Below the pieces are notes generated by a model that worked only from the letters and a program-made list of their open reading frames with translations, had not been told where the DNA came from and searched no databases. A DNA stretch of 44,083 nt from a virus, in IMG/VR virus record IMGVR_UViG_3300029319_000110, positions 1 to 44,083 of that record; one strand, written 5' to 3'. Made by a program: the position numbers and the translations under genes. Positions 19,501 through 38,601 of the stretch are shown here, piece after piece. Each line of letters opens with the position of its first letter. Position 1 is the stretch's first letter.

Positions 19501-19895
19501 GTTTGTACAGGGCAGATGCGGAAACAAAACATGCGACTTGGGCATCTGTTGGTAATGTATTTTATGACGAAGGAATTTGTTTTATTAAGTCGCCACACCC
19601 GCCTTGTTTTGGAAAGGGTGGCCATGAATTGAAATTTAATGGTGAGCATACAGCGCAGATATTAACTATTAACGTTCCGGCTAGTCGTGATATGTTTAAT
19701 TCATCTTCAAATGCTTCATTTAAACCAGTATCTGCATCTTTAAATGAGTCTGATTTAGGGAATGATCTGGTTTATATAACAGGTGTTAACATACATGACG
19801 AAAATTTAAATGTCATTATGAAAGCAAACTTAGCTCAGCCCGTTGTCAAAAGAAGTACTGATGAGTTTATGTTTAAAATTAAGATGGATTTTTAA
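16584..19895 (+). CDS. LamG-like virion protein with an inserted Ig-like domain
   Basis: 1103 residues. A concanavalin/LamG-type jelly roll lies at about residues 305-465: FSFWINP, then NWHYVSVKWSP, then KLFIGNFYDG are the usual LamG strands. Its closing strand (NAEIHELRGFSQCLTDYREAQ) appears only at about residues 655-675. Between them, at residues 485-642, sits a Thr/Ala/Gly-rich domain of different composition, described separately. The C-terminus carries the VGNVFYDEG...KMDF module shared with the preceding gene. LamG folds bind carbohydrate or protein, so host-surface attachment is plausible but inferred. The stop overlaps the next start by one base (TAATG). Confidence 0.65.
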   Translation: MSFIRLNNILFEKSSATFRKEQTYVSQSSGITGNLTVASRPSKRIRGDTKDFMPRNDVNFSAGHSGIDMRNFFREHDTGYNLSDQGISTEDSIDLVFTLLDHVNSVNDPAARAKRDLKVMNISASYGIYGADLVNRSTVDAGNVFSWPGAIFDFETSNQRVDPFVFKQMAIPSDPLYETWPTYAENLLTIETFVLNDNPGLASPVNAFFYMDYRDELNEFNVLGLHTNAPNSARNLLRQAGSKKQITNVLMPSYAGKYNNCEFTYHNYNTLNFLHTDDYPEDACLVYSSSFFPKYDSDGDSFSDFTFSFWINPRYTNDTPGGEFKTGTIMHISSSMALSLVSGSSTDKNGYVDGYRIMLQLSQSADILPSEVDVSSVNSSNGNASLTYPKDLIYLSDDNSLKRNNWHYVSVKWSPNYNNSSGSLKVDDKTKHFYIPSASFGEANSLLSKDKLFIGNFYDGVSTEINKFFNPEDAKLDSTVNHEQHGVTLTEAAATATVTVTDGDAASGMTEKQHITLTSTDGTTRRYVLTNAASDGSTATGTVLSDASNTDTGAGTAGADEDGGIAVSINLSSATQNTFLVQLKAAIEHANGHNGKITVSAVPGAANGNQSITLTQASKGQGGNTTITENLANVTAVNFSGGLDRLNPRFNKVKSHPLNAEIHELRGFSQCLTDYREAQIRDKGLQDYVTDDVVFHVPVAFSRFIRGGNNYDGIGTTDNGRRLLSPFLTSSVATIDTVSSRFALNNRYFGMSTPFNPCFSLGSGGKYINLENFVKNFAAVDTVPDNSEAYFPMARNGYESPRLYNLSGSLIKANNLGTVTNTAAYSYSQGSIKKRNLMILPNDNGLYSPNYFFLKKEEDSQNKFSDRYKSDFGGTDYGIISLRNIIHSGSSVIGDGSGLYALGDPKYFDSLRRNFFISYITQDVDSNDVSMFSIPSAYYGEQIHPGTFQIKDLKVTGSNEKISLKFKDDLRGSLYRADAETKHATWASVGNVFYDEGICFIKSPHPPCFGKGGHELKFNGEHTAQILTINVPASRDMFNSSSNASFKPVSASLNESDLGNDLVYITGVNIHDENLNVIMKANLAQPVVKRSTDEFMFKIKMDF
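17912..17942 (+). repeat. Perfect 11-bp inverted repeat inside the LamG gene
   Basis: GAATAGTTTGT at 17912-17922 is followed nine bases later by its exact reverse complement ACAAACTATTC at 17932-17942. It lies within coding sequence and no T-run follows, so it is not an intrinsic terminator. It falls about 95 bases upstream of the inserted Ig-like domain. Confidence 0.6.
18037..18510 (+). other. Inserted Ig-like/adhesin-type domain within the LamG gene
   Basis: Residues about 485-642 of the LamG protein form a separate unit: ITLTSTDGTTRRYVLT, a GTV...GGIAVSINLSS stretch, FLVQLKAAIEHANGHNGKI, then SITLTQASKGQGGNTTITEN and a closing NFSGG. The order of elements (TLTDxxGTxxxY, an Ala-Ile helix, ITLTQxxxGxxGNT, FSGG) matches a repeat-like domain I recall from many tail and structural proteins of aquatic phages. 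It interrupts the LamG fold before its last strand and is richer in Ala, Gly and Thr than its surroundings. That suggests a domain acquired as a cassette. Confidence 0.5.
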
Positions 19896-20446
19896 TGATA
19901 CTTGCACTTGACATCTCGACTTCTTGCACTGGTTGGTGCGTGTTTGACGAGAATGGCCTTAGAGGATCAGGATACATTGATCTTAGCAAACATAAAGGTA
20001 TGTATGAAAAAGCTGGTAGAGTTAAAGCAGAGCTGCTTAATTTAATGATATTGTACCCGTTTGAAAAGGTTGTTGTTGAAGAAAATTTGCAAGCTTTCCG
20101 GCCTGGGTTATCATCAGCAAAAACCCTCATGACTCTAGCACAGTTTAATGGTGTCGTTAGGTGGATATGTCATGATGTTTGCAATTTAGAAGTTAATTCT
20201 ATTAACGTAAATACTGCTAGAAAAACCGTTGGTTTGAAAATTGATAGAAAATCAAAAAAGAAAACAAAAGAGCAAGTTTGGGAATGGGTAAAGGCTGAAA
20301 ATACAAAAGACAAGAAATTAATTCAATGGCCGATGAAAACTTTGAAAAGTGGGCCTAATAAAGGTACAGTAAGGCTTTGCAACGAGGCATATGATGTGGC
20401 TGATGCTTACATTATAGGAAAAGCTCATTTTAAAATGAAAATTTAA
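19895..20446 (+). CDS. RuvC-like Holliday junction resolvase
   Basis: 183 residues with an RNase H-like RuvC fold. The first strand MILALDISTSCTGWCVFD carries the first catalytic Asp (D5). VVVEENL near residue 60 supplies the Glu, and AYDVADAYIIG near residues 168-178 supplies the C-terminal acidic pair. The length is typical of RuvC-like enzymes (170-190). It should cut branched DNA, resolving recombination and replication intermediates before packaging, the job that T4 endonuclease VII (gp49) does with an unrelated fold. It overlaps the LamG gene by one base and precedes the primase. I am confident of the superfamily; the substrate is inferred. Confidence 0.8.
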   Translation: MILALDISTSCTGWCVFDENGLRGSGYIDLSKHKGMYEKAGRVKAELLNLMILYPFEKVVVEENLQAFRPGLSSAKTLMTLAQFNGVVRWICHDVCNLEVNSINVNTARKTVGLKIDRKSKKKTKEQVWEWVKAENTKDKKLIQWPMKTLKSGPNKGTVRLCNEAYDVADAYIIGKAHFKMKI

Positions 20447-20469
20447 TTTTTTTTGTGTATTATAATTTT

Positions 20470-21432
20470 ATGCAAACTGTTACACAAAAAATTGATTTTT
20501 TATCAACTTGTTTTGGAGAAGATTACGCGTTAGCTAGAGATGGGGTTAACGTAAGTTATCAGTGTCCTAACTGTGGAAAAGGAACGAACAAGAAAAAATT
20601 AAGTATTAATTTAGATACTTGGGCATGTCATTGCTGGGTTTGTAATATTAAGGGTAGGACGCCGTATTACATTATCAAAGAATTTGTCTCAAAGCATCAT
20701 GCTCAAAAATTTAAAGAATTATTTGGAATTAATTTAGGAAAGAAAGAAGAAACATTAGTAAAAGAAGTATTGAAATTTCCTTCTGAATATAAAATGTTTG
20801 CTTCGATTGATAAGGTTTATGATCCTGACATTAGAGATTGCATCAAGTATTTAAAAAGCAGAGGTATAACTGAAGAGTTAATGTGGTATCATAAAATTGG
20901 TACATTCGTTGGACGACGTTGGTCACGGAGAGTTGTTTTTCCTTCTTTTGATATAAACCAAAACTTAACTTTTTATGTTTCTAGATCAATCGATGAGGAC
21001 GCATTCATCAAATATCAAAATTGTAAAGCTGATAAGACAAAAATAATATTTGACGAAATAAGACTAAATTTTAAAAAAGAATTAATGATTGTTGAGGGTG
21101 TTTTTGACATGATCAAGTGTCAAAAGAATACTACATGTCTATTGGGTAGTAGTTTAAGAAACGACCATTACTTGTTTCAGAAGATTGTAGAGAATCAAAC
21201 TCCTGTATTGCTGGGGTTAGATTCTGACATGATAGATAAATCTTACAAGATCGCAAGTGATTTAGCATCATATGGAGTTCAAGTTAGAATATTAGACACA
21301 ACAGGCTATCATGACGTTGGAAGTATGTCAAGAGAAATAGTAAGGCAAAAATCCAAAGAGGCTCCTATTTATTCAAGAGAAAGTCGCTTGCAACATTTAA
21401 TTGGCACAATAAGCAGCGGCTCTATTTTTTAG
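20470..21432 (+). CDS. DNA primase (zinc ribbon + Toprim)
   Basis: About 320 residues. The N-terminal zinc-binding motif has CPNC near residue 27 and CHCWVC near residue 52, as in DnaG- and T7-type primases. The Toprim core shows the Glu in ELMIVEGVFDMIKC and the Asp-x-Asp in LLGLDSDMIDKSYKIA. It should make RNA primers for lagging-strand synthesis with the phage helicase. Start choice is uncertain: an in-frame GTG lies at 20455 and the ATG at 20470, and neither has a visible Shine-Dalgarno sequence in this T-rich leader. A TATAAT at 20461-20466 could be a promoter element. Position beside the resolvase fits a replication/recombination pair. Confidence 0.8.
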   Translation: MQTVTQKIDFLSTCFGEDYALARDGVNVSYQCPNCGKGTNKKKLSINLDTWACHCWVCNIKGRTPYYIIKEFVSKHHAQKFKELFGINLGKKEETLVKEVLKFPSEYKMFASIDKVYDPDIRDCIKYLKSRGITEELMWYHKIGTFVGRRWSRRVVFPSFDINQNLTFYVSRSIDEDAFIKYQNCKADKTKIIFDEIRLNFKKELMIVEGVFDMIKCQKNTTCLLGSSLRNDHYLFQKIVENQTPVLLGLDSDMIDKSYKIASDLASYGVQVRILDTTGYHDVGSMSREIVRQKSKEAPIYSRESRLQHLIGTISSGSIF

Positions 21433-21441
21433 GAGATATTA

Positions 21442-22095
21442 ATGGCTCGCTTCAATAGAAAAGATTTAAAGAAAATAATTCAACTTGAAATTAAAAAATT
21501 AATGGATGAGGATGCACTTTTTATGACTCGCACTGTTCCGGGTGACTACGACTCCGACGTTTCAAATTTCAGATCTAATGACCTATCCGTTCTTTACCCT
21601 TTTGGTGACGATCATGATGATCACGATCATGAGTGCGAAGATTGTGCAAAAAAGAGAAGGAAGCATAGTTATCCATACGGTACCGCTGTTCACACTAAGA
21701 AACATGGAATGCATGAAAACTGTGGTTGCGGGGGTGCAGATCATGATGATGAAAGCATGTATGTCACACCAATTGGTGATTTTTCTGACTTAGACGATAC
21801 GAACATAACACCAGGTCAAGCATTTTCTGCTGGACTTGTAGCGGACGATCAACATCACAAATCTAGCAGTTACATGGCACGACCACAATTATATAAAATT
21901 GCTAAATATGCGGTAGAATTGCTTGATATGGTTGAAGAAAATGAGCAGCTCGACGACTGGCAGGAGTCTAAAATAGCCCAGATATCACAGATGATTGGTA
22001 GTGTTTATCATTCTTTAGATTATGATGAAATGCAGCATCACGATAATCTAGATGTTGATGATCTTATAGGGATGATTAGGTCGGATAATATTTAA
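21442..22095 (+). CDS. His-rich protein with N-terminal capsid-targeting-like tag
   Basis: 217 residues with an AGGAGAT site. The first 24 residues (RKDLKKIIQLEIKKLMDE) form an amphipathic helix of the type repeated on four other genes here and end in an acidic, LMDE|D-like site. Residues 50-105 contain a dense His/Asp stretch (GDDHDDHDHE), a CEDC pair and a CGCGG motif that could bind metal. The C-terminal 70 residues look helical (YKIAKYAVELLDMVEENEQLDD). I infer an internal head protein because of the tag and its neighbours; the metal-binding idea rests on composition only. No known family recognised. Confidence 0.6.
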   Translation: MARFNRKDLKKIIQLEIKKLMDEDALFMTRTVPGDYDSDVSNFRSNDLSVLYPFGDDHDDHDHECEDCAKKRRKHSYPYGTAVHTKKHGMHENCGCGGADHDDESMYVTPIGDFSDLDDTNITPGQAFSAGLVADDQHHKSSSYMARPQLYKIAKYAVELLDMVEENEQLDDWQESKIAQISQMIGSVYHSLDYDEMQHHDNLDVDDLIGMIRSDNI

Positions 22096-22117: not shown

Positions 22118-23431
22118 GTGCCAATTCCTATTAATAACTTGTTTGATGATGAAAATAGCATAGAGATACATTGTCTACCAAGTGTGGAAGATATCTCTGA
22201 CATGTCAAAAAGATGGAATAGTATTCCTGTTAATATCTCTGATATTCCTGTACTAGATTATCCGTTGTTTGGAACAAGAGAATTTAGTGAAGACTTGGAT
22301 CTGTTGCAAAAGTATTTTATTTCACCTATAAATAATAGACATTTTTTAGAATTGTCTGACAAGAAACCTTATGATATTTTAAAAGATTATTGTCAAAAAA
22401 ACAACTTGGATTTAGATTTTGACAAACTATATGATTTAAATGATGAACTTTCTAGGCTTGTTTTAACTTTAAAATTTAAGTATAATAGACCACGTCCTAA
22501 AAAATTTATGCAACAGATGAATGATTCTTTTCCGCACGAAAGAATAACAAGTAACAAATCCCCCTCTTATCCAAGTGGTCACACAGCACATGCTTTTTTC
22601 AATTGCGTAATAATCGCAGCAATGCACCCAGACCATGAAATGAGACTTCGATCTCTAGCAGAACAAATTGGTCAATCTCGAATTGATTTAGGCAAACATT
22701 ATCCTTCCGATGTCAGCTATGGTCGTTTTATTGGCGAATTTGTGGGTAAAAAATATTTAAACGGAGGAGCAGTTGATAATAAGAAAGATGTAAAGGAAAC
22801 AGTCATGACTAGAGAAAACAGAAAAATTGCAAGAAATCTATTAAGAGAGGCAGCTTCAAATCATGACACAAAATCATTAGGTACAACATACACGGATGAG
22901 TTGTGTGAATTTATTATAAGGTCAAATGCTATAGAAAGATATCATTTTCCGATTAGTGATGCATATGAAGCTGCTAAATCATTTATGCATGGGCTTCCTG
23001 TCGAATATTGTACAGATAATAAATATATCAGGTCACACCTAGCGGGACTTGAAACTGCTAGTTTGTTAAAATCAATAGATGACCCTGTGAAAGTTCAGAC
23101 ATTACACGCTGCACTTGGACCTGACGTGCTTGAAAGGGGAGAACCAGGTGTTTATCGACCTTTTGAGCACTATGCTAGAACAACAGGACATAAGTATACA
23201 CACCCGAATGATATACTGGGTGAATTAAATCTTTGGTGTGAAAAAACTAAGTCAATTGATCCATTTTCTAGACATGTTTTATACGAGTGCATTCACCCGT
23301 TCAGTGACGGTAATGGAAGAAGTGGAAGGTTGATTTTGGCTGCTGACTTAAATTTTGACTTAGCAAATCTTAACGATATGATTGGTGACGATTATATTGA
23401 TAAAATTGTTGATTATCAAATGAGAAATTGA
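22118..23431 (+). CDS. PAP2 phosphatase-Fic domain fusion protein
   Basis: 437 residues from GTG 22118 (AAGGAAG upstream). The N-terminal PAP2 acid-phosphatase domain has all three motifs: K-x6-RP at K119-P127, PSGH at 152-155, and SR-x5-H-x3-D at S187-D198. There are no membrane helices, so it resembles soluble acid phosphatases. The C-terminal Fic domain has the complete HPFSDGNGRSGR motif (393-404), expected to transfer AMP or a related nucleotide to a protein hydroxyl. SNAIE at 269-273 resembles the inhibitory (S/T)xxxE helix, with Arg instead of the usual Gly/Asn after it. Between the domains, residues 230-245 form a tag ending LRE|A, led by an in-frame ATG with its own ribosome site. 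The joining of these two activities is unfamiliar to me. Confidence 0.85.
   Translation: MPIPINNLFDDENSIEIHCLPSVEDISDMSKRWNSIPVNISDIPVLDYPLFGTREFSEDLDLLQKYFISPINNRHFLELSDKKPYDILKDYCQKNNLDLDFDKLYDLNDELSRLVLTLKFKYNRPRPKKFMQQMNDSFPHERITSNKSPSYPSGHTAHAFFNCVIIAAMHPDHEMRLRSLAEQIGQSRIDLGKHYPSDVSYGRFIGEFVGKKYLNGGAVDNKKDVKETVMTRENRKIARNLLREAASNHDTKSLGTTYTDELCEFIIRSNAIERYHFPISDAYEAAKSFMHGLPVEYCTDNKYIRSHLAGLETASLLKSIDDPVKVQTLHAALGPDVLERGEPGVYRPFEHYARTTGHKYTHPNDILGELNLWCEKTKSIDPFSRHVLYECIHPFSDGNGRSGRLILAADLNFDLANLNDMIGDDYIDKIVDYQMRN
22792..22807 (+). promoter_or_regulatory. Internal ribosome site and ATG for a Fic-only product
   Basis: AAAGGA at 22792-22797 stands seven bases before an in-frame ATG at 22805, codon 230 of the PAP2-Fic gene. 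Translation from here would give a 208-residue Fic protein starting with the tag MTRENRKIARNLLREAA. TGA TAA TAA in the -1 frame at 22774-22782 sits just upstream, as expected at a former gene boundary. Confidence 0.5.
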
Positions 23432-23467: not shown

Positions 23468-26230
23468 ATGCTAATTAATGAAGAATTGCTCAAAGCGATT
23501 ATTAAATCAAAAATTGAAAAAAAATATTTAAAAGAAGCTCCGGAAGATAGAGCTCGGCGTCAGCAGCGACGTCAAAAAAGAAGAGAGCGAAGACAAGAAA
23601 AGCGCGCTGATGTTCAACAGGCAGATACACGAGCTGAAAAAAGAGCAGTAAGGCAGAGTTACCGGGCTGAAAGAAGGGCAGCAAGAGATGCTGATCGCTT
23701 TGAACGAGATGATGCTGGGGTTGATCTTTCTAGCATGTTAGCTCCTGATTATTCCAATGATGCTATTTATCAATTAATTGTTGAAATGGTTAATGAAGTC
23801 ATACCAGGTATAGAAAAATTTGAAAATCGTCACAAGGGTGTAAGGTTTATAAAAAGAATTCGTGGACGAAGAGAACAGAAAGTAACAATCGGTCAAGTTA
23901 AAAGATTTATTAAAAATGGATTAACGCTTACATTAGAAAAAAATTACCCTAAAGCCGCAGACGCTTTTTGCGCAGCATCAGTATTTCTAGAAAATCCAAA
24001 GACTCCTGATGAACAACCGCTTAACGTCGAGAAATATATTATTGATAAGTTAGAAGACATATGCAAAATGTTAGGATCAGGTGATTTTGGCCAAAAGTCT
24101 GCAAAGGTTGCTAGCAAGAAAGGTAAAGGTACAGGAGGCGGAGGCAGCACTATAGCTTGCGTTAAAGAAATACAAGAATCTCTCAATGAAATTGCTGTAG
24201 AACTTACTGACTTAGTAATCGATGGAAAGTGGGGTAGTTTAACAACAGCTAGTTGGAATCACGTTATTAAAACTTACTTTCTAGCTGGCGATGAATATAA
24301 CGGTGTAACTGTTGATGATACAATTATTAATGCAGTTTTAAAAACTTGGCCAAGTGGTGGTCCGATGATAGGATTTGAAGGAAATCCTTGCGGGGCTAGA
24401 GACTTTTTATTAGTAATGATAGAAAAGTTAGGTGAAGGTGGTGGGGAAGAAGTGGTCCCTTCTAAAAAAGACGTTAATGATTGTCAGTGGTATACGAGAA
24501 GAAAACCTCTTGAAGGCGCTCAAGATATTAACCTGGGTGCCCTGCTAGCAGGAGATGGTTTGACGATTGATTTGGTCTACGATATGAAAGAATTTGAAAA
24601 GTACAACCCAGGGGAAACATTTGACGATTTCACTCAGGTTGGTCACTATATATCCATTGGCGATGTGAAGGGATTTGGATCACAAGAGGCACAGAGAGAC
24701 GCTTCCGGAGGCCCAGATGCTCATAGCGGGATGGTCTTTAGTGCAGATGCATATTACTACAATTGTGAAACACGAGAACTTTTAATTGATACTTCTACAG
24801 GAGATGGAGTGCTTCAGCATGTTTGGGTTGACGGAAATGTATTAAAGTATGATTCAGCGAGAAGCGATGCAGCAGAAGCTGCAGAAACTACAACTGAGTC
24901 TAAATTGCACCTTAACAAGAAAAAAATAAGAGAAATCATAAGGTCAGAGTTATTAAATGAAGCTCTTGGCGAAGAAGACGTCCGGACTTTACTTACTTCT
25001 TTGGTAGGCAAAATAGTTGAAATGGATAAAGATGGTTTAGAAGCTGTTACGATTAATCAAAGCCAAAAAGCTGGATTTTCAGCACTTCAAGATGGAAATA
25101 TAGAACGTGCTACTCAGCAGTTTAAAGCTGCTGCTGCAGCAGCTGATAGATACAAGGGGACATCAATATCTAAGGAAGATATAGCAAATATTAAAAATAC
25201 GTTTTTAGCAATCGCAGATGGTATCCAGCCTGATTCCAAAAAAGAAAAAGAAGAAGTAGAAAAAGTAGTTGATAAAATCGAAGGTGAAGGTGATGGGAAG
25301 GGTTCAGCTAAAAAAGCATCGAAAAAGCCGAAAACTAGAGCTAGCAACCCAAAAACTAAACAAGTTCAAGAGCTACTAAATTATCTTAATGATAATAACC
25401 CGCAGCTTGAAACGGACGGAATTTGGGGTAAAGGTACGACAAGTGGATACAACACTTTTGTAGACAGTTTAACAGATAAAGGCGACGATGCTAAAGCGTC
25501 AATGAAGAAATCTTGGGCTGAATATGCTAAAACAGCTGGATACACACCCAACGTCGATGGGCTTATTGATTTCTTAGAAAAGCAAAAAGCCAATAAAATT
25601 GAGGCGGAGACTTCTGAACAAACAGAAGAAGATTTAAAGACAACAGATGAAAAAGCTGCAGAAGAGAAGCAGGCTTCTTTGAAAACAGTTTTTAGAGATT
25701 TAAGAAGCCTGCTTCGACCGATTCTTGAAGCTGATAACGATGGTAGGTTATGGGATCATGTAATTGCCACCTCAGAAAATTCTAAGGTCAATTCTTCAAA
25801 TTATACTGCTTCTCACGAAGTTAATAATAGGGGGGATTATGGCACTCGTGACTATACTTTGAATTTTGATTTTGATGGCGTCGACGATCCTGGCGGTACG
25901 GGTACTATTGTTAAGCTTTCTGCTAAGTTGGGTACGTCGAAACCATTGACAACTGCAAGGGGTCGTGAGGCTAACTACAACTCCGCCAAAACCATAAGGT
26001 TTGAGAATCAAGACATACAGGTTGAAGGTATCACACTCGGTGAATTAGCTGAAATGCCTGCTGATCAACCCATCTTTAAAGTATTTGAATCATCAACCGC
26101 AGTTACAGGACAACAGGCAGCAATGTTCGCGACGAGCGGAGTTCCACATGATAGATGGTCTGGGCCAGAAATAGCATACTTGGCAGCACAATTACTCCCT
26201 TCAATGCTTAAATTAAAAGTACAAAAGTAA
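23468..26230 (+). CDS. Duplicated tagged protein with two peptidoglycan-binding-like repeats
   Basis: 920 residues made of two similar halves. Each half has a tag helix (residues 1-23 ending YLKE|A; residues 479-498 ending LLNE|A), a helical region (KNYPKAADAFCAA near 160; DGNIERATQQFKAAAA near 540), a Lys/Gly linker, and a peptidoglycan-binding-like repeat (VIDGKWGSLTT near 250; ETDGIWGKGTT near 648). After tag 1, residues 25-80 are strikingly Arg-rich (RRQQRRQKRRERRQEKR), suiting a DNA-bound internal head protein. No lytic catalytic domain is visible. I infer packaged cargo that may act on the cell wall or bind DNA during injection; the function is unproven. Confidence 0.65.
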   Translation: MLINEELLKAIIKSKIEKKYLKEAPEDRARRQQRRQKRRERRQEKRADVQQADTRAEKRAVRQSYRAERRAARDADRFERDDAGVDLSSMLAPDYSNDAIYQLIVEMVNEVIPGIEKFENRHKGVRFIKRIRGRREQKVTIGQVKRFIKNGLTLTLEKNYPKAADAFCAASVFLENPKTPDEQPLNVEKYIIDKLEDICKMLGSGDFGQKSAKVASKKGKGTGGGGSTIACVKEIQESLNEIAVELTDLVIDGKWGSLTTASWNHVIKTYFLAGDEYNGVTVDDTIINAVLKTWPSGGPMIGFEGNPCGARDFLLVMIEKLGEGGGEEVVPSKKDVNDCQWYTRRKPLEGAQDINLGALLAGDGLTIDLVYDMKEFEKYNPGETFDDFTQVGHYISIGDVKGFGSQEAQRDASGGPDAHSGMVFSADAYYYNCETRELLIDTSTGDGVLQHVWVDGNVLKYDSARSDAAEAAETTTESKLHLNKKKIREIIRSELLNEALGEEDVRTLLTSLVGKIVEMDKDGLEAVTINQSQKAGFSALQDGNIERATQQFKAAAAAADRYKGTSISKEDIANIKNTFLAIADGIQPDSKKEKEEVEKVVDKIEGEGDGKGSAKKASKKPKTRASNPKTKQVQELLNYLNDNNPQLETDGIWGKGTTSGYNTFVDSLTDKGDDAKASMKKSWAEYAKTAGYTPNVDGLIDFLEKQKANKIEAETSEQTEEDLKTTDEKAAEEKQASLKTVFRDLRSLLRPILEADNDGRLWDHVIATSENSKVNSSNYTASHEVNNRGDYGTRDYTLNFDFDGVDDPGGTGTIVKLSAKLGTSKPLTTARGREANYNSAKTIRFENQDIQVEGITLGELAEMPADQPIFKVFESSTAVTGQQAAMFATSGVPHDRWSGPEIAYLAAQLLPSMLKLKVQK

Positions 26231-26301: not shown

Positions 26302-26673
26302 ATGCCAAAAAGGTTAATTCCAAAAAATATTAAAAAAGAGTTGAAAAAGAGTATAAAGCGTGGTGGCGGTCAACTTGCACAGTCGACGACAAAAGAAAAA
26401 CAAAATTTAAAGCGCAAGATAAGACGGCAGCAGCAGACTGGTGAAACAAAAAGATCTAAAATCACCTGGAGTATTGCTCCGGGAGATCTAGTAGTGATTA
26501 AGAATAAGAATAAAGATCAGCAAACAGTTGTGGGGATTATTCTGAACAAGAAAGCAAGAATTAATTATAACAATCAAGAAGAAGAGTACGTGATTATGAT
26601 GACCCCCAATCATTCTAATTTTAAAATTTCCCCTAAACGTTTAAAATTATTGCAGGGTATTAAAGATTGCTAA
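26302..26673 (+). CDS. Small basic hypothetical protein
   Basis: 123 residues with the strongest ribosome site in this stretch (AAAGGAGG, nine bases before ATG). The N-terminal half is very Lys/Arg-rich and helical (NIKKELKKSIKRGGG, LKRKIRRQQQTGETKRSK). The C-terminal half looks like a small SH3-like beta barrel (APGDLVVIKNKNKDQQTVVGIIL). The combination suggests nucleic-acid binding, perhaps a small regulator or nucleoid-like protein. It is a single-gene unit between two copies of the promoter motif. No family recognised. Confidence 0.55.
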   Translation: MPKRLIPKNIKKELKKSIKRGGGQLAQSTTKEKQNLKRKIRRQQQTGETKRSKITWSIAPGDLVVIKNKNKDQQTVVGIILNKKARINYNNQEEEYVIMMTPNHSNFKISPKRLKLLQGIKDC

Positions 26674-26754: not shown

Positions 26755-27816
26755 ATGGATATCAAAACCTTTACAACAATCGTACCAAAACTACCATCAA
26801 ATATTTCTGTTCTCGTAAGCGGAGGTACAGGAATTGGAAAATCTGACTTGTTTCACCAGATTGGATCAGACTTAGGATTGCCTGTTATTGATAGAAGGCT
26901 TTCTCAGATGACTGAGGGTGATATTATTGGCTTGCCATCCCTTGAAGATGGAACAACTAAATTTATTCCTGTTGACTGGATCATGAAAGCATCTCGCGAA
27001 CCGGTTTGCCTTTTCTTGGATGAGATTAATAGAGCAACAGTTGAAGTCCAGCAATGTGCATTCCAGCTTGTCTTGGATCGTGAAATTAATGGTGTTAAAT
27101 TGCACCCTGAAACTCGGATTTATGCGGCAATTAATGAAGGATCCAACTATCAGGTTAATGATATGGGCCCAGCGTTACTTCGTCGTTTTTGGGCTGTTAA
27201 GCTTGAACCAACTGTTGATGATTGGGTTAACTGGGCTCGACACCGTGATGATATTGATTCGGTTATTGTTGATTTTATCGATAACAACCCACAGCAACTT
27301 AATCATACAACTGAATTTGAACCGGGTAAAGTTTATCCGAATCCTGCTAGCTGGCATCGTCTAGCAAGAAGCTTGAAGCACTGCGGTTGGGATCCTAGTA
27401 AATTTTGCGGGGGAGAAGTCCCGGAAGGTTTCTATAGTCTGTGCTTGGGTTTTGTAGGTATTGAACCATCTAGCGCTTTTTCTTCTTTTATTAAAAAGTA
27501 CGACTATCAGTTCTCTGCTGATGATATCTTGATCAATTACGCAGAGAAGAAGCCCGCATTGATGAGCTTGACAAATGATAAGGTAAATGATTTGATTGAA
27601 AAGCTTGAGTATCATGCTAAAACCAATGATGTTTGGACTGTTGAGCAGGCACATAATGCTTGTGATTTTGTTAGAAACTTTTCTGGTGAAATGCAAGTAA
27701 GTTTTTTCAACAAGATGATGGATTGCGGTAATCTGGACACTGTTATGCGTGTACACAAATTGATTGGACGTGAAATTGTTGATTTGGTGAATGCTTCAAA
27801 TGATTTAAATAGATAA
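26755..27816 (+). CDS. MoxR-type AAA+ ATPase
   Basis: 353 residues. Walker A is GGTGIGKS (23-30), Walker B is CLFLDE (85-90) followed by INRA, the sensor segment reads YAAINEG near 121-127, and an arginine-finger-like LLRRFW follows near 138. These are the marks of the MoxR branch of AAA+ ATPases, which act as chaperone-like partners of VWA-domain proteins. The next gene is exactly such a partner, so the two should form a functional pair. Its role in a phage is not established; remodelling or metal loading of a protein complex is inferred from cellular relatives. Confidence 0.8.
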   Translation: MDIKTFTTIVPKLPSNISVLVSGGTGIGKSDLFHQIGSDLGLPVIDRRLSQMTEGDIIGLPSLEDGTTKFIPVDWIMKASREPVCLFLDEINRATVEVQQCAFQLVLDREINGVKLHPETRIYAAINEGSNYQVNDMGPALLRRFWAVKLEPTVDDWVNWARHRDDIDSVIVDFIDNNPQQLNHTTEFEPGKVYPNPASWHRLARSLKHCGWDPSKFCGGEVPEGFYSLCLGFVGIEPSSAFSSFIKKYDYQFSADDILINYAEKKPALMSLTNDKVNDLIEKLEYHAKTNDVWTVEQAHNACDFVRNFSGEMQVSFFNKMMDCGNLDTVMRVHKLIGREIVDLVNASNDLNR

Positions 27817-27824
27817 ACAATTCA

Positions 27825-27852
27825 TGCAAATAACAAATTGTATAATTATAAT
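27825..27852 (+). promoter_or_regulatory. Promoter-like motif TGCAAA-N16-TATAAT (copy 3)
   Basis: CATGCAAA (core 27825-27830) and the second of two tandem TATAAT hexamers (27847-27852) are 16 bases apart, upstream of the metallopeptidase/VWA gene. The first TATAAT at 27841-27846 gives a spacing of 10 and is less likely to be the one used. Confidence 0.5.
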
Positions 27853-27875
27853 AAAATTATAAATAGGAGAAAGTT

Positions 27876-29156
27876 ATGAGCAAAGAAGAAAAAGTTCAAA
27901 AATCAGATTATATTTTCGACGAAGCGACCCCTGAACAAATCAAAAAATTTAGATTAGATTATCATATGATTAATCTTATTCATAATGAACCATTTTTTAG
28001 TTCGATGTTGCGCAGGATTAAGCGGGTAAAAACAGAGGAGATTCCCACTGCAGGAGTATCTGTTCAAGATGGTTCTTTAACATTGTACTGGAATCCCAAG
28101 TTTTTGGCGGGATTAGATTCTAAAAAACTTCTAGGGCTTCTTAAGCATGAATGTTACCATCTGATTTTTAAGCATTGCACAGCAAGAAAACAGAAGCCTC
28201 ATCAAATGTGGAATATCGCAACAGATTTGGCAATTAATTCAATTATTCCAGAAAGTGAATTACCTGATGGCGGTTTGATTCCCGGGAAAGCTTTTAAAGG
28301 TATGAATAATATTTCAGATCCAAATCAGCTAGCTGCATGGAAAAGATTGTCAGCTCTAGTTGTATCTTTCCCCAAAAATAAAACGTCAGAGTGGTACATG
28401 AAAAGGCTTATGGAGGATGAAGAACTGCAGTCTGCGTTTGATAAACTGCCTAAAGAATACGTTGTGGGCTTTGATGATCATGATGGTTGGGGTGATTTGA
28501 CAGATGAAGAAAGAGCTAAACTAGAAGGTGAACTAAAAGACATTGTAGGGAAAGCGACAAAAGAAGCAGATGCAAGTGATACTTGGGGATCTGTTAGTCA
28601 AAGTGTCCGGCGCCAGATAAGAAAAATTTATGAAAATAAGGTTAATTGGAAAGTTGTTCTAAGTAGCTTTATTGGAATGCGTCAGCGCGCTAAGAAGGCT
28701 TCAACCCACAGGAGGATTAATAGAAAATATCCCTATATTCACCCAGGTAAGAAAATTGGACACACAGCAAATCTTGCAGTTTATATTGATCAATCAGGAA
28801 GTATTTCTGATAAGGATATCACTGCTTTTACCGGTGCACTGACCGGTCTGGCCAAGTCAACAACTTTTACATTTTATAATTTTGATACCCGAGTTGATGA
28901 AAAGTCTAAGAAAACTTGGAAGAAGGGCAAAAAGAATGTCCAGATTGAAAGAACAGTATCAGGTGGTACTTGTTTTAATTGTGTTGAAAATCACTTTAGA
29001 GATAGCAAAGATGTATACGATGGGTACATTGTTTTAACTGATGGTTGCGCTAGCAAACCAATACCATGCAAGAAGAGAAGGTGTTGGGTAGTTCTGCCTA
29101 ATTATAAGCTGTTTTTTACACCCGATAATACAGACGTTGTTGTTCAAATGGATTAA
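27876..29156 (+). CDS. DUF2201-type putative metallopeptidase with VWA-like domain
   Basis: 426 residues. The N-terminal domain has the zinc-peptidase motif HECYH (91-95) followed by WNIATDLAINSII, the usual pattern of the DUF2201 N-terminal domain. The C-terminal VWA-like domain has the metal-site motif DQSGS (305-309), a downstream GGT near residue 365 and a TDG near 388. In cells such proteins are encoded with MoxR ATPases, as here. Predicted role: substrate recognition or peptidase partner of the upstream ATPase. Whether the HExxH is active, and what it acts on, cannot be seen from the sequence. Confidence 0.8.
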   Translation: MSKEEKVQKSDYIFDEATPEQIKKFRLDYHMINLIHNEPFFSSMLRRIKRVKTEEIPTAGVSVQDGSLTLYWNPKFLAGLDSKKLLGLLKHECYHLIFKHCTARKQKPHQMWNIATDLAINSIIPESELPDGGLIPGKAFKGMNNISDPNQLAAWKRLSALVVSFPKNKTSEWYMKRLMEDEELQSAFDKLPKEYVVGFDDHDGWGDLTDEERAKLEGELKDIVGKATKEADASDTWGSVSQSVRRQIRKIYENKVNWKVVLSSFIGMRQRAKKASTHRRINRKYPYIHPGKKIGHTANLAVYIDQSGSISDKDITAFTGALTGLAKSTTFTFYNFDTRVDEKSKKTWKKGKKNVQIERTVSGGTCFNCVENHFRDSKDVYDGYIVLTDGCASKPIPCKKRRCWVVLPNYKLFFTPDNTDVVVQMD

Positions 29157-29222: not shown

Positions 29223-32200
29223 ATGCGAATAGCACATATAGCTGACGTTCACTGGCGTGGATTGTCAAGACACAAAGAATATCGTGAATCATTTGAAGAC
29301 TTCTTTAGACAGTGCAGGCAGTTAAAACCCGATGTAATATACATTGGTGGAGATATTGTTCATAGTAAAACACAAGGAATATCTCCGGAGTTAATTGACA
29401 ACCTGCGCTGGTGGTTTAGTGGTCTGGCTAAAATAGCACCAACGCATGTTATTCTAGGTAATCATGATGGCCTTATCTTGAACAAGGATAGACAAGATGC
29501 CATTAGTCCGATTATCACACTTTTAGATAATCCAAATATCTACTTGTATAAGAAATCAGGCGTTTATCCGATTGGCACATCAGGTTTCAACTGGTGTGTC
29601 TTTTCTTGTTTTGATGAAGAAAACTTTGATAAAGTTATTCCTGTCGAAGGTGATATCAATATTGCTTGTTATCACGGTGCTGTTAGAGGATCTTTAACAG
29701 ATACAGATTGGCAACTTGAAGGAGAAATTAATCTCAAAACATTTGAAAATTTTGAATTTGGAATGTTTGGAGACATACACAAGCGTCAATTTCTAAATGA
29801 AAGCAACACTATTGCTTATTGTGGTAGCACGATACAACAAAATTATGGTGAGAGCGGGGACAAGGGTTTTTTACTTTGGGATATTAGGTCTGCTGACGAT
29901 TTTAATGTAGAATTCCACAAGGTCAGGCATAGTCACCCTTTTATTACTGTTGCTTGGCAGGGAAGCGTTCAGCAGACTTTAGATAAGTGTAACCTATATC
30001 CTAAGGGCGTGCGATTTAGAGTACGCACAGATTCATCTGTGACACATGTTGAGTGTAAAAGATTGCAAGGCGAATTGATTAAGTATCATAATGCTAAAGA
30101 AGTTGTATTTAAATCAGAGTCAGTTTTTGATCCAAGAAAAGTAATGGTTTCTAACGGGACGTTAAATCAAAATAATTTACGCGAGCCTAGCACGCATAAA
30201 AAAATGTTTAGAGACTTTTATAAAGAGAGCAATATAACGGATAATACGTGGAAATCCTTAGATACAATGATTGAATTGTATGTTGATCGATTGTCGGGAA
30301 AGGATGAAACACTTAGAAATATACAGTGGGAGATCAATAAAATTGAGTTTGACAATTTGTTTTCTTATGGAGAATCAAATTTAATTAATTTTGATAAACT
30401 GCCAGGAATAACAGGTATTTTTGGGACAAATGCAAGGGGAAAGTCTTCTATAATTGGATCGATCGTGTACGGTTTATTTAATTCAACTGATCGCGGTACG
30501 ATTAAGAACTTGCATGTCATTAATACAAGAAAAAATATGTGTAATGCATCCTTGACAATTACTATAAACGGACAGCGATACCGTATAGATCGAAAGTCAG
30601 TTAAGAAAAATGCAAAAGCAGGCGTTTGGGCACCAACCAGCCTTAGCTTTTACAAGGTCGATAAAGACGGAAATGAATTAGAAGATTTAACTGAAGAACA
30701 GCGAAGAGAGACAGAGAAAATTATAAGAAATTTAATCGGTAATTCAGATGATTTTCTATTAACATCATTAGCGTCCCAAGGTGAAATGAATGCCTTTATA
30801 AAAGAAAAAGCAACGGCTAGAAAGCAGATATTGACAAATTTTTTAGATTTGGAAGTTTTTGATAAATTGTATGAATTGGTTAGAAAAGATGCGCAAGAAG
30901 TAAAGTTGCAGTTTAGATCCCTTGGGGATAATAATTGGGACTTGCGAATAGAAGAATCATCAAATAATATCAAAGAGAAGACAAAAAAAATCGGAGTTAT
31001 TAAAAAGCAAATGATTGTTTTAAAAGATGAAATTGACACGTTGAAAGACGATCTAAGATCATCTAATGATTCTTTTATATTGAAGTCTGATGTTGACAAT
31101 GCGTATAATCAGTGTTTGTCCTTGGAAATATTAATACAAAAAGACGAAGATAGAATTGATGAGCTGACTGATACTATTCAATCTAGAAAAGAAAAATTAG
31201 AAAATTTAAATTTATTTTTAGACAATTACGATATCAACACTATGAAAGAGAAAAGACAGACACAAATAAATTTAGAACTTTCATTAAAAGACATGAAGCA
31301 TAAAATTGATTTAATCAAAAGAGACATTAAGCAAAGCAAAAAGTCTGTAGCTATTTTAGATCAAGTCCCTTGTGGTGATCAATTTCCTACTTGTAAGTTT
31401 ATTAAAGATTCACACAAAAATAAGAAATTATTAGTAAATCAAGAAGCAAATTTAATAAGCTTGAATACGAATTTAAGAGATTTAAGGTCGCTTTATAATA
31501 AAGTTAAAGATAGTGAATTAGAGGACACGATTAGCAAGTATGAAAAAATGGTTGAGCGTAAAAGTGATTTAGTTAATCAAACATCTGCTCTCAATTTAGA
31601 ACTAGCTAAATTACAGGAAAATATGAAATGGCATATTGAGGCTTTAACAAAGAAACAAAATGATCATGAACGTTTAGAGACAATATATAAAAATCAGAAT
31701 AACGAAAATGATTTAGAGTTGTCTAATCTTTGTGATCAAAAAATAAAAAAGTTAAAAGAGTTAGAATTTCAAAAAGAAAAAATAATCAACAAACTAGCTG
31801 AGAAAAAAGCTGAAATTAAACGGTTGAAACGTGATAAAAAACTATATTTAGAATTAAAAGAAAAAAATAGATGCTATGATATATTTAGCACAGCTGTTTC
31901 TAAAAAAGGGATCCCGCTTCACATTATAAATAAGATGTTACCATCAATCAATGTTGAAATTCAAAAAATATTATCAGGTGTCGTGCCATTCACGGTAGAG
32001 ATTGAATCTGATTTAGAAACAAATTCTCTAGATGTTTATATTAACTATGGTGATTCAAAGCGTATTATTGAGTTAGCATCTGGTATGGAAAAAATGATGG
32101 CATCACTTGCGATTAGAGTCGCTTTGATTAATGTTTCTACATTATCAAAAACAACAATGTTAATGATTGATGAAGGCTTTGGTAGTCTCGATGAGACAAA

Positions 32201-32351
32201 CTTGGAGGCTTGCAATCGATTGCTTGTCTCTCTAAAAAAATGGTTTAAAAATATTATTGTTATTTCACACGTTGATGCTATTAAAGATTGTGTTGATAAT
32301 AATTTAGAAATATTAAAAAGAGGTAAAGATTCATATGTCTACCAACCCTAA
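29223..32351 (+). CDS. gp47/gp46: Fused Mre11-like nuclease and Rad50-like ATPase (T4 gp47 + gp46)
   Basis: A 1042-residue single chain. The N-terminal third is an Mre11/SbcD-type phosphoesterase: ADVHW (8-12), GGDIVH near 40, GNHDG near 80, a lone CYHGAV near 150 and GDIHKRQ near 180. From about residue 365 it becomes a Rad50/SbcC-type ATPase: Walker A GTNARGKS (401-408), a long coiled coil (about 560-900), a signature-like LASGMEKM near 957 and Walker B MLMIDEG near 979-985. The coil apex has PCGDQFPTC (C717, C724), a CX6C variant of the usual CxxC zinc hook. It should process double-strand ends for recombination-dependent replication. In T4 the two parts are separate genes. Confidence 0.88.
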   Translation: MRIAHIADVHWRGLSRHKEYRESFEDFFRQCRQLKPDVIYIGGDIVHSKTQGISPELIDNLRWWFSGLAKIAPTHVILGNHDGLILNKDRQDAISPIITLLDNPNIYLYKKSGVYPIGTSGFNWCVFSCFDEENFDKVIPVEGDINIACYHGAVRGSLTDTDWQLEGEINLKTFENFEFGMFGDIHKRQFLNESNTIAYCGSTIQQNYGESGDKGFLLWDIRSADDFNVEFHKVRHSHPFITVAWQGSVQQTLDKCNLYPKGVRFRVRTDSSVTHVECKRLQGELIKYHNAKEVVFKSESVFDPRKVMVSNGTLNQNNLREPSTHKKMFRDFYKESNITDNTWKSLDTMIELYVDRLSGKDETLRNIQWEINKIEFDNLFSYGESNLINFDKLPGITGIFGTNARGKSSIIGSIVYGLFNSTDRGTIKNLHVINTRKNMCNASLTITINGQRYRIDRKSVKKNAKAGVWAPTSLSFYKVDKDGNELEDLTEEQRRETEKIIRNLIGNSDDFLLTSLASQGEMNAFIKEKATARKQILTNFLDLEVFDKLYELVRKDAQEVKLQFRSLGDNNWDLRIEESSNNIKEKTKKIGVIKKQMIVLKDEIDTLKDDLRSSNDSFILKSDVDNAYNQCLSLEILIQKDEDRIDELTDTIQSRKEKLENLNLFLDNYDINTMKEKRQTQINLELSLKDMKHKIDLIKRDIKQSKKSVAILDQVPCGDQFPTCKFIKDSHKNKKLLVNQEANLISLNTNLRDLRSLYNKVKDSELEDTISKYEKMVERKSDLVNQTSALNLELAKLQENMKWHIEALTKKQNDHERLETIYKNQNNENDLELSNLCDQKIKKLKELEFQKEKIINKLAEKKAEIKRLKRDKKLYLELKEKNRCYDIFSTAVSKKGIPLHIINKMLPSINVEIQKILSGVVPFTVEIESDLETNSLDVYINYGDSKRIIELASGMEKMMASLAIRVALINVSTLSKTTMLMIDEGFGSLDETNLEACNRLLVSLKKWFKNIIVISHVDAIKDCVDNNLEILKRGKDSYVYQP

Positions 32352-36654: not shown

Positions 36655-37489
36655 ACACAACAAAAAAAGAAATGTAGGACTCGTTTACGAACAACTACTC
36701 AGGTACATATCAGAAAATATCATCAATGATAATCTAGGTAATTCAAAAAAAGCTGTTAAAATCTTAGAGAGAAGATTTAAAAAGGATACAGAACTTTATA
36801 AAGAATTTAGGCTTTTTAATGCCTTGGCAAAGTCATCTGTTAGCGGTACACATATTGCTGCAGGTATTCTTGCTGAAGCGAAGAATGCAATTAAGCGAAT
36901 TGATTCTAAACAACTCCAAAAAGAAAAATCATTACTTATAAAAGATATAAACTACGAATTGAACGAATCTAATTTTTACCACAGAAAGATTGAAGATTAT
37001 AAGACGTATGCGACAATACAAACACTCTTTAACGAGTGGAGAAAAGGTGATTTATCTAATCTAAAAAAAGTTGTTGAATTTGAAAGAGCCGTTGTTGAAC
37101 ATCTAATGGAAAATAAAATTTCAAATACTGATATCGTTTTAGATGAAAGGTCTGATCATCTTGTTTTTAAAGTTTTATCTGAAAAAATTAATCAAAAGTA
37201 CAATTCAAGCTTGTCCCCAGAACAGAAAGACATTATAAGAAATTATGCAATTTATAATAATGATCCCCAAGCATTAGGAGTTTTCTTAGAAAACTTAAAA
37301 GTTAAATCAATGGGAATATTAGAAAATTTTAGAAAAGACTCTGATAATCAAGTTTTATTATCAAAGATTGATATGGTTTATGAAAATATTAATATTTTGC
37401 CTACGCAAGGTATTGATGACGAAATTATTAAAAAGTTTTTAGTTGTTTCAAATTTAAAAGACCAATTACTAAGGAAAGAAAATGAGTAA
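36647..37489 (+). CDS. Hypothetical protein between portal and prohead protease
   Basis: 280 residues, overlapping both neighbours by eight bases (ATGACTAA and ATGAGTAA), so it is translationally coupled to portal and protease. Mostly helical and basic (NSKKAVKILERRFKKDTELYKEF, HIAAGILAEAKNAIKRI), without signal peptide. T4 keeps the small prohead core proteins gp67 and gp68 in this position. This protein is larger and I see no similarity to them, but a role in prohead core or vertex assembly is suggested by place. Confidence 0.6.
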   Translation: MTKHNKKRNVGLVYEQLLRYISENIINDNLGNSKKAVKILERRFKKDTELYKEFRLFNALAKSSVSGTHIAAGILAEAKNAIKRIDSKQLQKEKSLLIKDINYELNESNFYHRKIEDYKTYATIQTLFNEWRKGDLSNLKKVVEFERAVVEHLMENKISNTDIVLDERSDHLVFKVLSEKINQKYNSSLSPEQKDIIRNYAIYNNDPQALGVFLENLKVKSMGILENFRKDSDNQVLLSKIDMVYENINILPTQGIDDEIIKKFLVVSNLKDQLLRKENE

Positions 37490-38084
37490 AAAAATGAAAC
37501 TATTAACAGAATGGACTCCTTTTTCTTATGACAAACAAGTGTTAAAAGAACAAAAGGATAAATATGGCAAAATGATGTTAAAAGGAATCATACAAAGAGC
37601 CAATACACTAAATCAGAATGGAAGAATATACCCGCAATCAATACTTTCTAGAGAAATAATGAATTACCAAAAATTAATTCAAGAGAATAGAGCGCTTGGT
37701 GAGTGTGATCATCCGGATAGTTCTGTCGTAGAATTAAAAAATGCTTCTCATATTGTTCGCGAAGCAAAAATGGAAGGTGACAATGTCTATGGCGTCATTG
37801 AAATACTAGACACACCATCAGGAAAAATTATTCAAAGTCTTATAGAGAGCGGAGTAACTTTAGGAATATCTTCTAGAGGCGTAGGCTCAACAAAAAGACA
37901 AGGTGATACACAGGTTGTGCAAGATGATTTTCAACTAATTTGTTTTGACATGGTTTCTGAGCCTAGCACACCTGGTGCCTTTATGTTAAGTGAAGGTAAA
38001 GAGATATCTCAAAAAGAGGTTGATAGATGTTTTAACAAGACCGACAAAATCGATAGAATATTTAATGATATTTTAAGGTGGTAG
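37482..38084 (+). CDS. gp21: Prohead core protease (T4 gp21-like)
   Basis: 200 residues (T4 gp21 is 212). Conserved blocks are NGRIYPQSIL near 47, ALGECDHPDSS near 74 with the catalytic His, GDNVYGVIE near 101, and LGISSRGVGS near 127 with the catalytic Ser. These are the marks of the T4-type serine prohead protease, which matures the capsid by cutting after (L/I)xE in the coat precursor, scaffold and internal proteins. The capsid precursor here has such a site (LRE|A at 61/62), and several tagged proteins have similar ones. A second in-frame ATG at 37494 is possible. Confidence 0.9.
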   Translation: MSKKMKLLTEWTPFSYDKQVLKEQKDKYGKMMLKGIIQRANTLNQNGRIYPQSILSREIMNYQKLIQENRALGECDHPDSSVVELKNASHIVREAKMEGDNVYGVIEILDTPSGKIIQSLIESGVTLGISSRGVGSTKRQGDTQVVQDDFQLICFDMVSEPSTPGAFMLSEGKEISQKEVDRCFNKTDKIDRIFNDILRW

Positions 38085-38088
38085 TAAT

Positions 38089-38601
38089 ATGCAAAAATTG
38101 AGTAGAAATATTTTAAAAGAAATTGTAAAGGAATGTATTGTAGAAATATTTGAAGAAAGCTTTTTTGGTGGTCCAGGTGAATTAATGAATGAAAATGTAC
38201 AACACTATCAAAGTGATCGCAATCAAACAAGCGCTAGAAGGACGTCAAGGAGACCCCAGCGCAGTAATCAACAAAACATTTCAAGGAGAAAAGGCCTGGA
38301 TAATATTTCCTATGCTAGCGAAGAAAAAAGTCGGCCAGTTCAAAACGAAGCATTTAATAGAAAGATTAATAATATAACTTCTAACATGACTTCTGACCCT
38401 GTGATGACAGATATATTTAAAGATACGGCTGCAACAACTTTACAGTCACAAATTGGTGCAGAAACCAACAAAGGAATGCATGTGCTGGCCGGTGGAGACT
38501 CGGCCGCTAAACAAGCATATCATTCTGATCCAACTGAATTATTTGCTGAATCTGCTTCTAAGTGGGCCTCATTAGCTTTTGCTGATCCTATTAAGAAATA
38601 G
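38089..38601 (+). CDS. Tagged putative internal head protein
   Basis: 170 residues. The N-terminus (QKLSRNILKEIVKECIVEIF, then EES) is another copy of the tag helix and contains IFE|E as a possible protease site. It is followed by a basic Arg/Gln/Asn-rich, probably disordered stretch near residues 45-70 (SARRTSRRPQRSNQQ) that suits DNA contact. The C-terminal third is helical and ends with FAESASKWASLAFADP, reminiscent of the scaffold C-terminus nearby. Location directly behind the protease gene fits a prohead core or packaged protein. Function inferred only. Confidence 0.6.
   Translation: MQKLSRNILKEIVKECIVEIFEESFFGGPGELMNENVQHYQSDRNQTSARRTSRRPQRSNQQNISRRKGLDNISYASEEKSRPVQNEAFNRKINNITSNMTSDPVMTDIFKDTAATTLQSQIGAETNKGMHVLAGGDSAAKQAYHSDPTELFAESASKWASLAFADPIKK

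Follow-up and report, generated by a model that had tools for sequence, protein, structure and literature searches.

A fused PAP2 phosphatase-Fic gene in T4-like phages and its possible role as an Alt-like, head-packaged enzyme

The PAP2-Fic gene and its domains

The DNA analyzed here (the window) is a 44,083-nucleotide stretch, positions 1 to 44,083 of IMG/VR record IMGVR_UViG_3300029319_000110. It is a T4-like phage fragment, with genes for Portal_T4, a T4-type terminase, a gp21-type protease, and gp23; the terminase of the nearest isolates is only ∼41% identical to that of the window. Window features detailed below are on the plus strand. The gene at 22118 to 23431 begins with a GTG codon downstream of a Shine-Dalgarno-like AAGGAAG, lacks internal stops, and encodes 437 residues in which Pfam identifies a PAP2 domain (residues 116 to 210, E = 6.5e-15) and a Fic domain (residues 325 to 408, E = 6.6e-9), both exceeding the curated cutoffs. 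An initial annotation had placed all three PAP2 motifs and a full Fic motif in one open frame, and each is present: Kx6RP at 22472 to 22498 (KFKYNRPRP, residues 119 to 127), PSGH at 22571 to 22582 (residues 152 to 155), SRx5Hx3D at 22676 to 22711 (SRIDLGKHYPSD, residues 187 to 198, with H194 the expected nucleophile), and the Fic active-site motif HPFxDGNGRxxR at 23294 to 23329 (HPFSDGNGRSGR, residues 393 to 404). The interpretation as a single, bifunctional-looking gene of a T4-like phage is supported.

The PAP2 domain spans 22247 to 22759 (residues 44 to 214), and its catalytic residues K119, R126, H155, R188, H194, and D198 are invariant in an alignment of 17 diverse members. The Fic domain, delimited by Pfam and the structure model, spans 22880 to 23428 (residues 255 to 437), and includes SNAIE (22922 to 22936, residues 269 to 273), which matches a class II inhibitory-helix motif, [S/T]xxxE, in both position and sequence. 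Between the domains is a variable linker (22760 to 22879, residues 215 to 254) with the highest dN and with pLDDT below 50 at residues 217 to 230. We considered a separate internal start for Fic (ATG at 22805, with AAGGAA upstream) and rejected it; it is not conserved, and because several members (L005, L007, L019, L023, L024, L099, and L100) have no start codon anywhere in the linker, there is no conserved second gene start.

An AlphaFold2 model of the whole protein, built from a 17-sequence alignment, has a mean pLDDT of 85.4 with a disordered N terminus and linker, and a pTM of 0.51, such that the arrangement of the PAP2 domain relative to Fic is uncertain; the Fic part modeled alone reaches a pTM of 0.86. 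Foldseek matches to the whole model are FICD-type Fic proteins and acid phosphatases, and every significant match to the Fic part alone is a Fic protein. Sequence searches of the PDB give class A acid phosphatases (PhoN, the Escherichia blattae enzyme, and others) as closest to the PAP2 half, and a Clostridioides difficile Fic protein as closest to the Fic half. Membrane lipid phosphatase was considered as an identity for the PAP2 domain and rejected, as the maximum 19-residue Kyte-Doolittle values in four members are 0.62 to 1.14 and there is no hydrophobic segment. From the motifs, the class A-like fold, and the lack of hydrophobic segments, we predict a soluble, class A acid phosphatase-like PAP2 domain of cytosolic type. 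The canonical HPFxDGNGRxxR motif similarly predicts AMP transfer by the Fic domain, with nucleotides other than AMP as possible transferred groups. Pfam reports PAP2 and Fic only, and an ADP-ribosyltransferase domain is absent from its matches to the protein, which rules out an Alt homologue.

Conservation, selection, and origins of the fusion

Scans of viral contigs, of neighboring genes, and for the Fic domain yielded 24 other IMG/VR contigs in which a single frame covers both domains at the same locus, encoding proteins 29 to 56% identical to that of the window. The PAP2 catalytic residues are retained in every one of them. Among 17 members searched with Pfam, PAP2 is recognized in all and Fic in 16. 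Of the two objections named in the initial annotation, relatives consistently encoding two genes with a stop between them and a one-base error near 22748 to 22773, neither holds, as the same continuous frame is found in the 24 other contigs. Given this frame and the lack of a conserved internal start, we attach a negligible probability to an assembly or annotation artifact in which a sequencing error joined two adjacent genes, for which no evidence was found. The further suggestion that two genes were recently joined does not hold either, because members diverge down to ∼29% identity and their fused Fic domains form one clade; by these sequence comparisons the fusion is old within its phage group.

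The locus has a shared order of a LamG-type gene, RuvC, primase, (g217), PAP2-Fic, usually an AAA/VWA pair, SbcCD, and terminase. In the window, the conserved upstream genes encode a RuvC-like resolvase (19895 to 20446) and a DNA primase (20455 to 21432), and the immediate upstream neighbor, g217 (21442 to 22095), begins with a leader, MxxxxxLKKIIxxEI, like those of head genes. Downstream is a 920-residue protein (23468 to 26230), weakly leader-like at its N terminus, that is missing or replaced in many relatives, followed by the AAA ATPase and VWA (DUF2201) pair (26755 to 29156), conserved in most relatives, and a conserved SbcCD-like fused nuclease (Metallophos plus SMC_N; 29223 to 32351). 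We also note a 123-residue neighbor (26302 to 26673) with a weak NlpC/P60 match below the cutoff, found near PAP2-Fic in several relatives. Phages outside the carrier set have RuvC, primase, and SbcCD without the PAP2-Fic gene, and because these noncarriers share the synteny, the gene is accessory. Carriers form two groups in a primase tree, and the nearest noncarriers (L163 to L167) adjoin the group of the window; this split may reflect loss or transfer.

The fusion was not found in the phage-isolate records or plasmids searched, nor among the matches listed in a search of GTDB. No cellular fusion is present among the best 80 matches listed in a scan of genome contigs, the top ones being single-domain PAP2 proteins of Bacteroidota or separate Fic proteins. 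The pairing is also absent from the open literature searched, in agreement with the initial annotation, which knew of no described protein with both domains.

Both domains are under purifying selection, with dN/dS of ∼0.05 to 0.13 in each among pairs with usable dS. The full Fic motif and the inhibitory helix are kept in 18 of 22 distinct proteins, and every member whose Fic motif is intact has [S/T]xxIE ahead of the Fic core. The class II inhibitory motif has been defined as (S/T)xxxE(G/N) (PMC3667792), and in PAP2-Fic members the inhibitory Glu is mostly followed by residues other than G or N. The remaining proteins (L029, L102, L104, and L105) constitute one monophyletic clade in the Fic tree, in which the Fic motif is degenerate (APFxxGN(K/R)KITN), the helix is deleted, and PAP2 is intact. 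Loss of the helix together with the motif is as expected if the helix restrains Fic, and we infer auto-inhibition of the Fic domain by [S/T]xxIE on the basis of the motif and this joint loss. The same clade raises the question as to whether PAP2 is the functional part of the family, with Fic a decaying or scaffold domain. We consider this very improbable, as most members keep both motif and helix and Fic has dN/dS values as low as those of PAP2; even in the dead-Fic clade the Fic value is 0.09 (L104/L105), suggesting that the Fic fold is still used for something. These four proteins appear to be natural pseudoenzymes, with a constrained, degenerate Fic domain fused to an intact PAP2.

The fused Fic domains group as a single clade (SH-aLRT 98) in the Fic tree. 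That clade connects (99) with other phage Fic domains, and both lie apart from every bacterial Fic sequence. Some of these other phage domains stand alone (L365, L381, and L382), whereas others have a fusion partner, which is NUDIX in L380, a poly(A)-polymerase head domain in L377, and LRV repeats in L359. In the PAP2 tree, the fused, other phage, and bacterial (mostly Bacteroidota) sequences lie apart, the fused group being less well supported (72). The trees support a single fusion event, with a Fic domain drawn from a phage-only Fic clade.

Both modules look like exchangeable parts, in that each is present in other multidomain phage proteins. Three very large phage proteins (L112:1643-6262, L118:5512-8394, and L154:3649-8919) combine PAP2 with a eukaryotic-type topoisomerase I, and those of L112 and L154 also contain a 2H/LigT phosphoesterase, with a poly(A)-polymerase head domain in L154 only. 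A 1,166-residue phage protein (L377:2819-6316) has a poly(A)-polymerase head domain plus Fic and, by eye, an HELQHS metallopeptidase-like stretch and a kinase-like C terminus, neither of which is matched by Pfam. Phage protein L380:3938-4924 joins Fic to a NUDIX hydrolase, a transferase-plus-hydrolase pairing recalling PAP2-Fic. Separately, the gene product adjoining a stand-alone phage PAP2 gene (L107:2382-3071) appears ADP-ribosyltransferase-like by eye (GTGYYFLGDLNDAL), with no Pfam match.

The N-terminal leader and a possible role in the phage head

The protein begins with a candidate capsid-targeting leader (22118 to 22159; VPIPINNLFDDENS) with the family consensus MxS[IL]xxLFxET, resembling the T4 Alt N terminus, MELITELFDED. 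The LF pair is invariant in all fused proteins and a variable stretch follows the leader; hydrophobic residues occupy positions 4, 7, and 8, and Glu is at position 9 or 10 in nearly all members. The closest likeness is in L017, where MRSIQELFDET is identical to Alt at 7 of 11 positions. For the internal proteins of T4, the residues important for targeting are 4 and 7, and those important for processing are 8 and 10 (PMC9026906), and Alt is cleaved at ITE-6 by gp21 (PMC5694885). The window leader, with LFDDE, has no clear (L/I)xE cleavage pattern, and therefore may be targeted and not trimmed. When T4 start candidates were scored with a profile of the family leader, Alt ranked third of 1,531 with a low score (3.9 bits), below UvsY, and the ranking is thus suggestive only. 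In two large related contigs, no convincing second protein with the exact family leader was found.

Head genes lie further downstream. A gp21-type prohead protease (37482 to 38084; Pfam S77, E = 1.6e-26; PHROG head maturation protease) is encoded in the window, and the S77 profile finds one in nine of nine other fusion contigs tested. Next to it is a head-operon protein (38089 to 38601) with the leader MQKLSRNILKEIVKECIVEIFEE, related in type to MKITRxxLRKLIxE leaders. A probable scaffold (40082 to 41503; MTNGLFEEAIADAKK), which is gp22-like by its position between the protease and the major capsid protein, has no family match, and the major capsid protein gp23 is at 41537 to 43453 (Pfam Gp23, E = 1.4e-77). 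A relative of the Fic domain (LRV-Fic) is encoded in L359 between the gp21 protease and gp23, inside the head operon; its N terminus, MLTLNNIFNE, looked by eye like a similar leader, and profile scoring gave this no support. Most contigs with stand-alone relatives lack a gp21 or gp23 match and are possibly fragments.

A second type of leader recurs in related contigs. In two related contigs of 202 and 236 kb (L251 to L272), MKITRxxLRKLIxE-type leaders are found on many otherwise different proteins, at 15 of 289 and 15 of 272 open reading frames, compared with ∼0.1 expected after shuffling and 0 of 242 in T4. Pfam assigned no function to ten proteins with the MKITRxxLRKL leader. Related leaders are present in the window at 21442 (g217), 38089, and 38673, and on the stand-alone phage Fic relatives L381 and L382, whose leader (MRITKxxLRKII) differs from that of PAP2-Fic; some of these are head-operon genes. 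The MKITRxxLRKLIxE type is possibly a general head-targeting leader of the phage group, and such shared leaders could serve as a sequence handle with which to list candidate proteins inside the heads of uncultivated phages, a class that is difficult to identify by other means.

The Alt-like leader lends support to the proposal of the initial annotation that the protein is comparable in purpose to T4 Alt. The interpretation we favor, and think somewhat probable, is that PAP2-Fic is an Alt-like, head-packaged, and injected enzyme that modifies the host, combining an auto-inhibited AMPylase with a cytosolic phosphatase. The protein would be made late and sorted by its short N-terminal leader into the prohead core, where a gp21-type protease would trim the leader in most relatives; it would then be packaged into the head and be injected along with the DNA. 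Fic would be kept inactive by its own [S/T]xxIE helix before delivery and would then put AMP, or a related nucleotide group, on a host protein, and the soluble PAP2 would dephosphorylate a cytosolic small molecule or nucleotide. Packaging and injection are proposed from the leader, the protease, and the gene context, and the activities and timing are likewise predictions. More speculatively, Fic could be the writer of a nucleotide modification and PAP2 the means of removing a by-product, a counter-signal, or the modification itself, both delivered with the DNA; we regard this as unlikely, and if true, such a writer plus eraser or clearing device would be new both as a biochemical pairing and as a class of injected effector.

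The replication genes RuvC, primase, and SbcCD among the neighbors are consistent with a different role, that of an early-expressed, unpackaged takeover or counterdefense enzyme, in which PAP2 destroys a defense nucleotide signal or removes pyrophosphate, a host protein is modified by Fic, and the LF helix serves folding or dimerization only. The soluble PAP2 does resemble broad-specificity phosphatases, and for pyrophosphatase-like domains in phage proteins that are injected, action against nucleotide signals or pyrophosphate has been proposed (PMC5512222), although for PAP2 such activities are a reasonable analogy and no more. The similarity of the leader to T4 Alt, the related Fic gene within a head operon (L359), and the position of the locus between a structural LamG-type gene and the terminase and portal genes all argue against it, and we consider an early enzyme possible but not likely. 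The head-type leaders of neighboring proteins and the Fic relative in a head operon would also fit an enzyme of virion or prohead assembly, modifying phage head proteins or acting in the particle and not on the host. This we find improbable, since the gene is accessory and the closest noncarriers, with the same synteny, presumably build heads; moreover, Fic enzymes mostly modify signaling or cellular proteins.

If the head-packaged, injected reading is correct, AMPylation joins ADP-ribosylation as a modification delivered with DNA by T4-like phages. The family provides a compact, conserved model in which some members are naturally catalytically dead, an inhibitor appears to be built in, and the leader is short.

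Comparison with known systems

A close known counterpart is T4 Alt, a head-packaged and injected ADP-ribosyltransferase. Both are protein-modifying enzymes, that of PAP2-Fic by prediction, of T4-like phages that encode a gp21-type protease, and both have a short N-terminal leader whose spacing is the same and whose core (LFDE) is similar. They differ in that Alt has an ADP-ribosyltransferase fold, whereas the folds here are Fic and PAP2 and packaging is a prediction; C-terminal processing has been reported for Alt. With class II and other solved Fic proteins (SoFic, human FICD/HYPE, Coxiella 8cil, and C. difficile 4x2c), the phage domain shares the Fic fold, HPFxDGNGRxxR, and an N-terminal [S/T]xxxE helix, but it belongs to a separate phage-only clade, usually lacks G or N after the Glu, and has a PAP2 partner.

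Class A acid phosphatases (PhoN, PhoC, and the E. blattae enzyme) are the closest solved relatives of the PAP2 half and share its three motifs. These nonspecific phosphatases are exported enzymes with signal peptides, whereas the phage PAP2 is predicted to be of cytosolic type, is ∼20% identical by structure match, and is fused to Fic. A similar architecture, with several unrelated enzymatic domains within a single phage protein, is that of polyvalent proteins (Iyer et al. 2017, PMC5512222), for which injection has been proposed; relatives of both modules are in proteins of this kind (PolyA_pol with Fic; PolyA_pol, 2H, PAP2, and topoisomerase). PAP2-Fic differs in having just two domains, without a processing metallopeptidase, and neither Fic nor PAP2 is named as such a domain in the polyvalent-protein survey (PMC5512222) or a jumbo-phage survey. 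An injected modifying enzyme is thus a known strategy, and the PAP2-Fic pairing, together with an AMPylase in that role, is new as far as we have checked.
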